Shown here: positions 15,483-19,555 of the stretch, in pieces
How positions within the stretch are numbered: the stretch's first letter is position 1
How the letters are laid out: each line of letters opens with the position of its first letter
Assembly: GCA_003157445.1 (NCBI GenBank)
Contig: PMJN01000498.1
Coordinates: forward strand, 12,042 to 31,989
Direction of reading: 5' to 3'
DNA: 19,948 bases
From: Micrococcales bacterium
GTDB taxonomy: Bacteria; Actinomycetota; Actinomycetes; Actinomycetales; Dermatophilaceae
Position numbers and translations under genes: made by a program
Notes under the pieces: generated by a model
What the model was told of the DNA's origin: nothing
Databases searched by the model: none
The model's input: only the letters and a program-made list of their open reading frames with translations

Positions 15483-15862
15483 CCGCAGCCTTTGCCACAG
15501 CCGACGGCGTCCACGTCGATGCCCACTTCGGCATGTGCGCTCGCTTCGACATCTATGACATCACCGCGCAGAGCACGCAGCTGCGCGAGACCCGCACCGT
15601 CGCCACCAGCGACGCGGACAACGAGGACCACCGGCTGCAGGCGCGGCTCGACGCTCTGGCCGGCTGCGCCCTGGTGTGTGTTGCCAGCATCGGCCCGGCC
15701 GCGGCGTCGCGGGTGGTCAAGGCGCGCGTGCATCCGTTGAAGACCGCTCCGAGCACGACGATCGTCAGCACCCTGGATCGACTTCAGGTCGTCCTCCAGG
15801 GGTCCCCTCCACCCTGGCTGCGAAAGCTCCAGAACCCCACTCCCTCTGGAGGCCCAGCATGA
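15476..15862 (+). CDS. nifX: FeMo-cofactor carrier protein NifX
   Basis: NifX is a small protein that holds NifB-co or cofactor intermediates during transfer to NifEN. The 128-residue protein is a single NifX/NafY-like domain: AAFATADGVHVDAHFGMCAR at the N-terminus contains the conserved HFG (17-19), and CALVCVASIGPAAASRVV matches the family core. The C-terminal tail PPPWLRKLQNP is typical of NifX. The ATG overlaps the nifN stop by seven bases, and the stop overlaps the nifB start in ATGA. It is homologous to the C-terminal domain of the NifB encoded next to it. Confidence 0.92.
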   Translation: MLTAAFATADGVHVDAHFGMCARFDIYDITAQSTQLRETRTVATSDADNEDHRLQARLDALAGCALVCVASIGPAAASRVVKARVHPLKTAPSTTIVSTLDRLQVVLQGSPPPWLRKLQNPTPSGGPA

Positions 15863-17358
15863 TCCGTTCCCTGCCCCTCATGCCCCTGCTCGCTCCCACT
15901 GCTCCTGCGGGCGCCGGCTGCGCACGAAAAGGTAGCTGCGGACTGCCGAGCACCGGTCTTGACGAAGCAACCAGAGCCCGCGTCGCCACCCACCCCTGCT
16001 ACAACCAGGACGCCCACCAGTACTACGCCCGCATGCACCTGGCGGTCGCTCCCGGCTGCAACGTGCAATGCAACTACTGCAACCGCAAGTTCGACTGCGT
16101 GAACGAGAGCCGTCCCGGCGTCACCAGCCGGGTGCTGACTCCGCAGGAGGCGCTGGCCAAGGTGGCCTACGTGGCTGCCAAGGTGCCACAGCTTTCGGTC
16201 GTCGGCATCGCCGGCCCTGGAGACCCGCTGGCGAATGCCAAACGGACCTTCCACACCTTCGAGCTGATCGCCCGGGACTTCCCGGATCTACGGCTGTGCC
16301 TTTCGACCAACGGGCTGCGGCTGCCTGAGAACGTCGACCGCATCGTCAATCTGGGTATCGACCACGTGACGATCACGATGAACCACGTGGACCCGCAGGT
16401 TGGGGCCGGTATCTACGCCTGGGTGGCGCACGACGGTAGGAAGCTGACCGGCGTCGAGGCTGCGCAGGTGCTGCTCGACCACCAGATCGCGGGCTTGCGG
16501 GCTCTTGTGGCCGCAGGAGTGCTGGTGAAGATCAACTCGGTGATGATTCCTGGCATCAACGACACACACCTCCAGGAGGTGGCTCGCCTGGTCAAGGCCG
16601 AAGGGGCGTTCGTGCACAACGTCCTACCACTGATCTCCGAGCCCGAGCACGGCACGCAGTTCGGGCTCACCGGGCAGCGCGGACCGACGGCCAGAGAGCT
16701 GAAGGATCTGCAGGACACGTGTGAGGTTTCGGATGGTCCGGGCCTCATGCAGATCATGCGGCACTGCCGGCAGTGCCGCGCGGATGCGGTGGGGATGCTC
16801 GGCGCCGACGAGGGCGAAAGCTTCCCGCCGGAGCTGTACCTCGCTCAGGGGGTGGCCAACGAGCCCGAACAGCGCCAGGGCGTGCGTGCGGAGATCGAGC
16901 AGCGGCGAGCCGAGCTGGCGGTCCTGCGCGATGAACGGGGCATCGCGACCGACGGCGCAAAGCCCGAGGATGTCGTGCTGGTCGCCGTCGCCAGCACCGG
17001 CGGGGGGCGGGTAAATCAGCACTTCGGCCGGGCCGAGGAGTTCTGGATCTACGAGGCGGCACCCGGCTGGGCCCGGTTCGTGCAGGTCCGCAACGTCCGC
17101 CGGTTCTGCTCCGGACTGCTGGGCTGCGACGACGACCCCTCGGCGCTGGGCAAACTGGTGGAGATGCTCTCGGACTGCGCCGCCGTCATCACTGCCGATA
17201 CCGGGCCGCGCCCGCGGGAGGCGCTAGAAGAGGCAGGGATCTGCTGCATCACCGTCGGTGACGAGGCAGAGGGACCAGACTCGGTCGTCGAGGTGGCAGT
17301 CGAGGCCGCAGGCGTCGCACTGGTTCCGGCCGCAGCCGTGATGGCCGGAGTCGCGTGA
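15859..17358 (+). CDS. nifB: NifB, radical SAM FeMo-cofactor core synthase with NifX-like domain
   Basis: NifB builds NifB-co, the 8Fe-9S-C core of the nitrogenase cofactor, inserting carbide from S-adenosylmethionine. The 499-residue protein has HPCYNQDAHQYYARMHLAVA followed by the radical SAM motif CNVQCNYC, with Cys67, Cys71 and Cys74, then NRKFDCVNESRPGV. The radical SAM barrel spans about 45-330, with CRQC near 300 typical of NifB. A C-terminal NifX-like domain begins near residue 372 (VLVAVASTGGGRVNQHFGRA). The ATG at 15859 is preceded by TGGAGG and shares ATGA with the nifX stop; the frame is open upstream within nifX but without a better start. Its stop abuts the Nfu-like gene. Confidence 0.96.
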   Translation: MIRSLPLMPLLAPTAPAGAGCARKGSCGLPSTGLDEATRARVATHPCYNQDAHQYYARMHLAVAPGCNVQCNYCNRKFDCVNESRPGVTSRVLTPQEALAKVAYVAAKVPQLSVVGIAGPGDPLANAKRTFHTFELIARDFPDLRLCLSTNGLRLPENVDRIVNLGIDHVTITMNHVDPQVGAGIYAWVAHDGRKLTGVEAAQVLLDHQIAGLRALVAAGVLVKINSVMIPGINDTHLQEVARLVKAEGAFVHNVLPLISEPEHGTQFGLTGQRGPTARELKDLQDTCEVSDGPGLMQIMRHCRQCRADAVGMLGADEGESFPPELYLAQGVANEPEQRQGVRAEIEQRRAELAVLRDERGIATDGAKPEDVVLVAVASTGGGRVNQHFGRAEEFWIYEAAPGWARFVQVRNVRRFCSGLLGCDDDPSALGKLVEMLSDCAAVITADTGPRPREALEEAGICCITVGDEAEGPDSVVEVAVEAAGVALVPAAAVMAGVA

Positions 17359-17921
17359 TGAGCCAGCTTCTCGAAGTGAGTCAGTCGGCGCTCCGCACGC
17401 TCCAGGAGGTGCTGTCGCCGGCCGCTGCAGGAACCCCGGCTGTCCGCGTCTCTGCCCGCCTGGCCGACACCGGCACCCCCGCCTACGATCTGGCGCCGGC
17501 GGACGGTCCGGCCCCCGGCGACACCGTGATCGACCTGGATGGGCTGGTGGTCTACGTCGACCCGGGAAGCGCGCCGCTGGTGGCGGGCGTCCGGATCGAC
17601 CACCTGTCAACCCCTCGGGCCACCGGCTTCCTGTTCCGACCCTCGGACGTCGAGCTGGCCGAGCGGGTCAGGACCGCGCTGGAGACTGTGCGTCCGCAGC
17701 TGCAGGCTGACGGCGGGGATGTGGAGCTGGTCGAAGTGCGTGAGGCGCGTGCGGTGCTTGCGTTCCAGGGGAGTTGTGTGGGGTGCGGCATGGCCAGTAT
17801 GACCCTGACCCGGCTCCTGGAGCAGCACCTGCGAAAGGTGGTTCCCGAGCTGGTGGCGGTCACCGCCGAGACCGTTCGCCCTGCCGGCATCTCGATGCTC
17901 GAGCGATCAGCGGATCAGTGA
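17358..17921 (+). CDS. Nfu-type Fe-S carrier (degenerate A-type domain plus NifU C-terminal domain)
   Basis: The 187-residue protein has two parts. Residues 1-90 resemble an IscA/HesB A-type fold but contain no cysteine. Residues 98-172 are a NifU C-terminal domain with PQLQADGGDVELVEV and the cluster-binding pair Cys140 and Cys143 in GSCVGCGMAS. This layout matches NfuA, which carries a 4Fe-4S cluster between two subunits and delivers it to target enzymes. Here it probably feeds clusters to NifH, NifB or NifEN in place of full-length NifU, which is absent from the window. The ATG at 17358 sits in TGATG with the nifB stop; a GTG one codon earlier is an alternative. The stop shares GTGA with hesA. 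Confidence 0.85.
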   Translation: MSQLLEVSQSALRTLQEVLSPAAAGTPAVRVSARLADTGTPAYDLAPADGPAPGDTVIDLDGLVVYVDPGSAPLVAGVRIDHLSTPRATGFLFRPSDVELAERVRTALETVRPQLQADGGDVELVEVREARAVLAFQGSCVGCGMASMTLTRLLEQHLRKVVPELVAVTAETVRPAGISMLERSADQ

Positions 17922-19555
17922 CGACCTCCGTGGAAACCTACGCCCGCCAGCTGTCTCTGCCCCGTTTCGGGGTGGCCGCGCAGCAGCGCTTGGCCGAAAG
18001 CACCGTGCTGATTGCCGGCATCGGTGGCCTCGGAGGTGCGACGGCGACCTATCTCGCGGCTGCCGGAGTGGGACGGCTGGTGCTGTTTCACCCGGGTTCA
18101 CTGGAACGGCCCGACCTGAACCGGCAGACGCTGATGACCCCGTCCGGACTGGGTCAGCTCCGGGTCGACTGCGCCACCGAGGCCCTCCACCGGCACTATC
18201 CGAATGTGGCGGTAGTCGCCGTGCCCGAGCCGATCACGGCCGACCGGACGCCGCCCTTTCTGGTGCAGTCGGACGTAGTCGTGGACGCCCGGCACAACTT
18301 TCCCGAACGGCTGCTACTGAACCGGCTCTGCGTCGAGCTGGAGGTGCCTATGGTGGAAGCGGCCATGAACGGCGCGGAGGGCCAGGTCAGCGTCGTTCGG
18401 CCGGGCCAGACGGCGTGCCTGGCGTGTCGTTACGGGGACGGCGACCCGGGGTGGGAACCCATGGACTTTTCCGTCCTTGGTGCCGTCTCCGGGACGGTTG
18501 GCTGCCTCGCAGCCATAGAGGCGATCAAGATTGTCACGGGATGGGGCGACCCTCTGGAGGATCGGCTCCTCACTCTTGATCTGGAGCACATGGACTTCCA
18601 GACGCTGCGCACAACCCGCGACCCCTCCTGCCCAGTCTGCGCGAGGAGCCGTCCGGCATCTGCAGCCAGGACAGCTCCGGCTGTGGCCGAACCAGCCGGA
18701 AAGCCCGCGGCCACCACCAAAACCCACCCGATCCGACCCCTGGAGCAAGTGATGCGTCAAAGTGTTCTCACCCTCACGGTGGCCGCCACCGCAGGACTGC
18801 TGCTGGTGGGGTGCGGCTCGTCCAGCGCCATCGGCGGATCGTCCACGAGTTCGCGCAAGACCGGGTCAAAGTCGGCGCCCCTGTCTGGCACGATCAACGT
18901 CTTTGCCGCGTCCTCCCTCCAGGAGGCCTTCACCACGCTGGGCAGGCAGTTCGAGGCCGCTCACCCTGGCACCAAGGTCGTGCTCAACTTCGGCCCTAGC
19001 TCGGGCCTCGCGACCCAGATCACCGCGGGGGCTCCAGCGGACGTGTTCGCCTCGGCCAGTACCAAGAACATGGCGCAGGTGGTCACCGCCCGCCAGGCGG
19101 TTTCCCCGAAGAAGTTCGCCAGTAATGTCATGGAGATCGCAGTCCCGGTGAAGAACCCGGCCAACATCACGGCGCTGGCCGACCTGGCCAAGCCCGCCGT
19201 AAAGGTGGCCCTGTGCCAGGCAGCGGTTCCCTGCGGCGTTTCTGCCGCCAAGGTCTTCTCCAACGCCAAGCTGACCGTGACGCCGGTGACCCAGGAGGTC
19301 GACGTCAAAGCCGTCCTGACCAAGGTCAGGCTCGGCGAGGTCGACGCCGGGGTCGTCTACGTCACCGACGTGCGCGCCGCCGGCGGCAAAGTTAAGGGCA
19401 TCAGGATCCCCACCTTCCTGAACGCCTCGACCCTGTACCCCATCGCCACCTTGTCCAAGGCGCCGAACAAAGCCACAGCCACGGCCTTTACCGACTACGT
19501 CCTGTCGCCCGCAGGGGCCAGCATCCTGTCCGCCGCGGGTTTCGCTAAACCATGA
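17918..19555 (+). CDS. hesA: HesA-like E1 protein in one open frame with molybdate-binding ModA
   Basis: The first 242 residues are a HesA/MoeB/ThiF-type protein. YARQLSLPRFGVAAQQRL opens the domain, GIGGLG (34-39) is the nucleotide loop, and the zinc pairs are CLAC (167-170) and CPVC (238-241). The loop that reads DGSDNFTTR in MoeZ is DARHNFPER here. HesA is an accessory gene near nifB in several nif clusters; a role in sulfur or molybdenum supply is suspected but unproven. An Ala/Pro/Thr-rich stretch (243-278) then leads without any stop into ModA (279-545). The GTG at 17918 shares GTGA with the Nfu stop. The gene may make a 545-residue fusion with an internal lipoprotein signal, or HesA may be made with ModA started separately inside. 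The frame continuity is certain; the product form is not. Confidence 0.8.
   Translation: MTTSVETYARQLSLPRFGVAAQQRLAESTVLIAGIGGLGGATATYLAAAGVGRLVLFHPGSLERPDLNRQTLMTPSGLGQLRVDCATEALHRHYPNVAVVAVPEPITADRTPPFLVQSDVVVDARHNFPERLLLNRLCVELEVPMVEAAMNGAEGQVSVVRPGQTACLACRYGDGDPGWEPMDFSVLGAVSGTVGCLAAIEAIKIVTGWGDPLEDRLLTLDLEHMDFQTLRTTRDPSCPVCARSRPASAARTAPAVAEPAGKPAATTKTHPIRPLEQVMRQSVLTLTVAATAGLLLVGCGSSSAIGGSSTSSRKTGSKSAPLSGTINVFAASSLQEAFTTLGRQFEAAHPGTKVVLNFGPSSGLATQITAGAPADVFASASTKNMAQVVTARQAVSPKKFASNVMEIAVPVKNPANITALADLAKPAVKVALCQAAVPCGVSAAKVFSNAKLTVTPVTQEVDVKAVLTKVRLGEVDAGVVYVTDVRAAGGKVKGIRIPTFLNASTLYPIATLSKAPNKATATAFTDYVLSPAGASILSAAGFAKP
18752..19555 (+). CDS. modA: molybdate ABC transporter substrate-binding lipoprotein ModA (internal start)
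   Basis: Starting at the internal ATG 18752, the product is a 267-residue binding protein. The N-terminus MRQSVLTLTVAATAGLLLVG followed by Cys21 is a lipoprotein signal with lipobox LVGC, so the mature protein would be anchored outside the membrane. TINVFAASSLQEAF, FGPSSGLATQITAGAPADVF and VDAGVVYVTD are ModA hallmarks, including the serines that bind oxyanion. It captures molybdate for nitrogenase cofactor synthesis. GGAG lies six bases ahead of the ATG, supporting independent initiation even though the frame is continuous with hesA. Tungstate or sulfate binding is possible for this fold but less likely next to nif genes. Confidence 0.85.
   Translation: MRQSVLTLTVAATAGLLLVGCGSSSAIGGSSTSSRKTGSKSAPLSGTINVFAASSLQEAFTTLGRQFEAAHPGTKVVLNFGPSSGLATQITAGAPADVFASASTKNMAQVVTARQAVSPKKFASNVMEIAVPVKNPANITALADLAKPAVKVALCQAAVPCGVSAAKVFSNAKLTVTPVTQEVDVKAVLTKVRLGEVDAGVVYVTDVRAAGGKVKGIRIPTFLNASTLYPIATLSKAPNKATATAFTDYVLSPAGASILSAAGFAKP

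Follow-up and report, generated by a model that had tools for sequence, protein, structure and literature searches.

HesA proteins encoded in nif clusters, for example those of Paenibacillus polymyxa WLY78, Frankia and cyanobacteria, belong to the ThiF-MoeB-HesA family. In the Paenibacillus study (PMC6361004) the role of HesA in nitrogen fixation is described as unknown up to that work. The protein is reported there to be needed for nitrogenase activity and is tied to the entry of molybdenum and sulfur into FeMo-co; cystine or a high level of molybdate partly overcame the hesA mutation, which left nitrate reductase unaffected. The protein described here shares family and nif-cluster position with these HesA proteins, but there HesA is a separate protein, whereas here it continues into ModA. 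Similar to ModA lipoproteins (TIGR01256), the second part has a full domain, a lipobox and four of the five pocket positions; unlike in standard ModA, a cytoplasmic-type protein precedes the signal.

Fusion of neighbouring genes is also found in ModA-permease chains, which we recognised by their Pfam sets (P0034, P0048, P0053, P0054, P0062 and P0068). In these both parts belong to the transporter, unlike in HesA-ModA. Rhizobial FbcH (cytochrome b and c1) is a polyprotein that is cut at an internal signal. A single chain, an internal signal and a signal-peptidase cut would be common to FbcH and the present protein, with the difference that the front part is soluble here and its cutting hypothetical. 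Among the papers listed in a search of the open-licence literature on HesA, ModA, molybdate and nitrogenase, none described a fusion of HesA with ModA, in agreement with the remark in the original prediction that no such fusion was known to its author. Both parts represent known families; their fusion appears to be new.

Gene organization and domain structure of the fused protein

The analysed stretch of 19,948 nucleotides (the window) carries a nif operon with nifH, nifD, nifK, nifE, nifN, nifX, nifB, an IscA/NfuA-like gene, hesA-modA and the start of modB, all on the same strand. The genome is a draft of 551 contigs and 68.6% completeness. Pfam and curated profiles identified nifB at 15676..17358 (+); its product bears a C-terminal NifX-type (Nitro_FeMo-Co) domain. 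The IscA/NfuA-like gene (17355..17921, +) lies directly upstream of hesA and its 3' end overlaps the hesA GTG by 4 nt. Downstream, a modB-like permease gene, starting by eye at ATG 19578 or 19596, is cut at the contig end (19578..19948, +). The same genome has a second modA on another contig, C400 (L113, 4391-6105), which is 72% identical to the fused one and is followed by modB; the search gave no match to HesA next to this copy.

The open reading frame list, Pfam and the relatives agree on a fused hesA-modA frame of 545 codons plus stop at 17918..19555 (+), which starts with GTG at 17918 and has no internal stop; the absence of a stop codon between hesA and modA thus stands as first proposed. 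An alternative TTG start at 17774 would give a product of 593 amino acids, and in the alignment all 11 full-length relatives start at the residue matching GTG 17918. Both domains are complete within the single chain according to Pfam. The HesA/ThiF-MoeB-like domain covers residues 8-240 (17939..18637, +; PF00899 (ThiF), 4.5e-55 for the whole protein) and the ModA molybdate-binding domain residues 326-542 (18893..19543, +; SBP_bac_11, 5.3e-47). In an AlphaFold2 model built from a 56-row alignment both domains have high confidence, and Foldseek matched the first part to MoeB/ThiF and the second to molybdate-binding proteins. Since residues 250-318 fall below pLDDT 50 and pTM is 0.50, the model predicts no fixed arrangement of HesA and ModA.

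The fold of the HesA part matches that of MoeB (1jw9_B) with a TMt of 0.92. Cysteines 167, 170 and 238, as well as 241 just past the domain, are kept; we take these four to be the zinc ligands of MoeB. Arg14 and Arg73 of MoeB are also kept (Arg10 and Arg69 here), Lys86 is replaced by Arg82, and Asp62, Asp130 and Cys187 correspond to His58, His126 and Pro181. Asp62, Asp130 and Cys187 are residues expected in an active E1-like enzyme. Using our own patterns, aspartate was found at the two sites in none of the 125 and 120 readable sequences, respectively, among 348 proteins. The curated cut-offs were missed as well, with 148.7 of 376.55 bits for moeB and 135.9 of 275.25 bits for adenyl_thiF. The protein therefore lacks both the residues Asp62, Asp130 and Cys187 and the curated scores of an active MoeB/ThiF adenylyltransferase; it has a ThiF-family domain and a position inside a nif cluster, as expected for HesA. 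The residue replacements suggest that this HesA may not act as a MoeB-like adenylating enzyme, and the earlier description of the HesA part as ATP-using is doubtful because aspartates are absent at the two MoeB sites. A MoeZ/MoeB-rhodanese encoded on the same contig (5828-7096, minus strand), upstream of the nif genes, has Asp at both sites.

The ModA part scores 125.9 bits against TIGR01256 (modA equivalog; cut-off 62.5 bits, E 2e-36), and by sequence it matches the structures 4kd5 and 1amf. Taking as molybdate pocket the five positions that we assume from E. coli ModA, S333, S361, V463 and Y481 are as in the E. coli protein and A125 is replaced by C439, in all 14 fused sequences discussed below. 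With four of five pocket positions identical, the ModA part is a predicted molybdate binder. In addition to the equivalog score it has the hydrophobic signal and the lipobox cysteine of a ModA lipoprotein; this signal is internal in the 545-residue chain and N-terminal if translation starts at Met279.

Linker and probable internal modA start

The two domains are joined by a linker of 36 residues (243-278; 18644..18751, +), in which the pLDDT is under 50 from residue 250 onwards. Near its end lies a modA Shine-Dalgarno sequence, GGAG (18742-18745, +), 6 nt before ATG 18752, which in the fused frame is translated within Leu-Glu-Gln. The unfused modA paralogue on C400 has the same GGAG, 6-nt spacing and ATG, and so does modA of the congener G180. 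Met279 opens the ModA signal, which extends to the lipobox cysteine (LVGC, 296-299; 18752..18814, +; Cys299 codon 18812-18814), so that the proposal of a ModA with its own lipoprotein signal and ribosome site could be confirmed. An out-of-frame TGA read directly from the sequence overlaps the modA start as TGATG (18750..18752, +).

An open junction is by itself no proof of fusion, since the linker is open in all three frames in DNA of 67% GC (whole window): the +1 frame first meets a stop at 18750 (TGA), the +2 frame at 18997. A first-order dinucleotide simulation gave a probability of 0.49 (whole-window composition) to 0.67 (local composition) for 36 codons without a stop. The reading in which chance openness proves the fusion was therefore rejected. 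The GC content at the three codon positions of the linker (0.69/0.72/0.64) has no domain-type pattern, in a stretch of only 36 codons. What exceeds chance is conservation: the frame is kept across the junction in all 14 fused rows, that is, the window and the clusters P0002-P0014.

Distribution of the fusion and unfused relatives

A whole-chain protein search, which took in the junction as had been proposed for checking the prediction, recovered 13 further fused protein clusters (P0002-P0014) from the ena, jgi and lgn sources, all from one clade of uncultured actinobacteria. Eleven of these (P0002-P0012) cover 100% of the chain at 79-94% identity; P0013 and P0014 are shorter and cross the junction. 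The length is exactly 545 amino acids in nine of the 11 full-length clusters, P0008 having 18 additional linker residues and P0012 being 26 residues shorter. Identity to the window is 84-96% in the domains (88-95% in the HesA part) and 80-96% in the signal (279-303) of the 12 relatives that have it. The linker drifts fastest of all regions of the chain, with 50-83% identity in the 12 signal-bearing relatives and 31% in P0012. Methionine is found at position 279 in 12 of the 14 rows, at 278 in P0013 and is missing in P0012; the lipobox is present in every row except P0012. The retention of start codon, lipobox and signal next to a drifting linker is read as selection for an exported, self-starting ModA. 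A point against two products is the altered Glu codon of the Shine-Dalgarno stretch in P0011 (SGQQM). In P0012, which derives from one 4112-base contig with 2 member sequences, signal, lipobox and Met279 are gone and both domains are retained; lacking signal and start codon, its ModA is hardly an ordinary lipoprotein. Changes in linker length kept the frame in two of three cases (P0008 and P0012) and broke it in P0122, numbers too small for a selection test.

Because the whole-chain protein search was confined to candidates of 300-954 amino acids, separate genes were sought by searching with the HesA and ModA halves apart, taking the best 120 matches of each. Among the best 120 HesA matches, P0122 is the only unfused one above 90% identity (96% over 89%, 280 amino acids); it is supported by one 1315-base contig with 22 member sequences and could itself be an assembly fault. 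The next unfused proteins among the matches listed are P0161 (87% over 62%) and P0123 (83% over 95%, most of the length). Within the linker P0122 shifts out of the frame shared by the other rows. Its last residues are ...RPDPWSS, and those of the window's +1 frame, at the TGA, are ...RSDPWSK; judged from the protein letters, the HesA of P0122 thus appears to end at the TGATG overlap with the modA start.

In a HesA tree with midpoint root, from which P0014 was excluded as too short and in which the bootstrap had not fully settled, 13 fused rows and P0122 form one 14-row clade (support 100/97), in which P0122 shares a group of four rows with the window (95/84). The simplest reading of this tree is that the fusion was gained once and later split once. 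The fused rows also group in the ModA tree, yet with the unfused ModA rows P0231 and P0232 among them. The N-termini of these two look by eye like those of other lineages, so that both are possibly products of recombination or of chimaeric assembly.

Searches for further fused DNA started with 186 family genomes, where the whole-chain query gave, among the matches listed, no second match spanning the junction and both domains. Order (396 genomes), class (394) and phylum (396) were searched with the HesA half at strict E-values, in overlapping samples. HesA was present in 26 genomes of the class search; in nine of its loci (L104-L112) the flanks, which measured about 1.5 kb at most, contained no ModA. 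In G555, HesA is 92% identical and the contig stops at residue 171; G555 is the sole genome in the sample of its family. None of 80 genome-contig loci (80 kept of 254) encodes both parts in one frame by tblastn, the viral contigs gave no match, and no plasmid record had more than 80% cover. L056, matched over residues 3-337, was rejected as no ModA was found there. P0108, a protein of 815 amino acids with SBP/ModA-like parts followed by ThiF, was rejected as a reversed fusion since its middle looks frame-shifted by eye.

Origin of the fusion

By eye, the first two thirds of the linker can be aligned to the tails of unfused sister HesA proteins, for example ...TPATRTPVSAEPAGMSAAS, and fused linkers read like AEPAGTSAATTKTHPIRPLEQ-x-Met. 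Similar tails, like AEPAGMSAAS, occur in P0124, P0125, P0127, P0135, P0143, P0148 and P0150; some unfused HesA ends are possibly cuts at contig ends. This match places the lost hesA stop about 12 codons before Met279, and the linker looks like the former C-terminal tail of HesA plus the old intergenic spacer. HesA tails vary among the unfused sisters. In P0130 and P0137, HesA apparently crosses the modA ribosome site in another frame, as judged from the protein letters, and the HesA of P0145 ends in a ModA C-terminus; from these three proteins modA probably lay downstream of hesA before the fusion. G180 (UBA4719) cannot settle the ancestral order because its hesA is on one strand and its modA on the other, in a scaffold that contains an N gap; the hesA match of this genome (L024, 2922-3596) is in two pieces, the first part being frame-shifted.

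Outside the clade, hesA and modA of the Nitrospirota record L096 do not share a frame; they have an apparent ATGA overlap and are followed by modB. ModA was present in the fetched flank of seven of 45 loci whose HesA is at least 45% identical, namely five from Okeania/Trichodesmium, L096 and G180, and absent from that of the other 38. The 45 loci were drawn from L024-L112 and include dependent cases (L032 and L104 come from the same genome); with flanks of about 5 kb or less, seven is a lower bound. An upstream-neighbour fusion was seen in P0161 (266 amino acids), where a NifU-type domain and the first part of HesA form one chain.

Products and possible function of the fused frame

Our leading explanation, to which we give somewhat more credence than not, is a hesA-modA fusion by loss of the hesA stop in a nif-mod operon, yielding a chain that may be cut and a ModA started at Met279. 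As no stop separates the parts, every full-length HesA carries ModA unless the chain is cut or degraded. The ModA signal would then act as an internal signal-anchor, with HesA in the cytoplasm and ModA outside, and a cut by lipoprotein signal peptidase at Cys299 would release lipid-anchored ModA and leave a hydrophobic tail on HesA, both close to the normal products. Ribosomes starting at Met279 would at the same time produce ordinary ModA. Two products are accordingly favoured: ModA in its ordinary form and a HesA-ModA chain that may be cleaved at the lipobox; the alternative of an internal ModA start in the original prediction is the better supported one, with start and lipobox kept and a native-type modA Shine-Dalgarno sequence. 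The biological basis would be that HesA and molybdate uptake serve one step, the supply of molybdenum for FeMo-co, and the fusion as such may be almost neutral. It would be unusual for a protein to be exported with 278 residues ahead of its signal, which counts against this explanation.

The idea preferred at first, HesA tethered at the membrane, corresponds to a selected tether in which the uncut chain is the working form, HesA is held beside ModB and molybdenum is passed to FeMo-co assembly. The retained frame in all 14 rows with HesA identities down to 88%, the adjacency of hesA to modA-modB also in the Nitrospirota record L096 and the partial molybdate rescue of the hesA mutant (PMC6361004) point in this direction. 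We nevertheless regard it as doubtful: inside the clade, P0122 abandons the frame within the linker and has a HesA that ends separately; sister HesA proteins also end alone; the unfused P0231 and P0232 nest in the ModA tree; the linker drifts fastest; Asp62, Asp130 and Cys187 of MoeB have no counterpart; and ModA would bind molybdate outside the cell, across the membrane from HesA. Rather unlikely in our estimate is a selected two-sided device, in which a cytoplasmic, non-adenylating HesA would be linked to ModA via the internal lipoprotein signal, bringing molybdenum handling for FeMo-co assembly to the importer, and the link would be cut or kept by need. Stop-codon drift without consequence, with ModA made from the internal start and an idle extra part on HesA, fits the few stops in high-GC DNA, the three open linker frames and the variable tails of unfused sisters, and also the proteins P0130, P0137 and P0145 and the other neighbour-gene chains (NifU-type with HesA in P0161; ModA with permease in six clusters). 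It is nonetheless unlikely, as the clade holds 13 fused clusters besides the window but a single split HesA cluster, and a chain that is merely degraded would cost the cell its HesA too, yet HesA is 88-95% identical.

P0012, without signal, lipobox and Met279 and with both domains and the five pocket positions as in the other rows, might represent a cytoplasmic HesA-ModA, in which ModA has been recruited to hold molybdate for HesA inside the cell and is losing its signal. As this is one row of 14, the lipobox is kept in 13 and P0012 is possibly a recent deletion or assembly fault, we consider such a function very improbable for the family. An error of sequencing or assembly in a single metagenome-assembled genome, in favour of which its fragmented state could be cited, was rejected and is hardly credible, since the fusion recurs in 13 further clusters from three source collections.

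The fusion matters because high molybdate partly rescued the published hesA mutant (PMC6361004), and because an ATP-using role of this HesA is doubtful. Together with the adjacency of hesA, modA and modB in a distant phylum (L096), it provides independent genomic evidence for the molybdenum side of HesA, and the natural fusion is a direct construct for testing the link between HesA and molybdenum.
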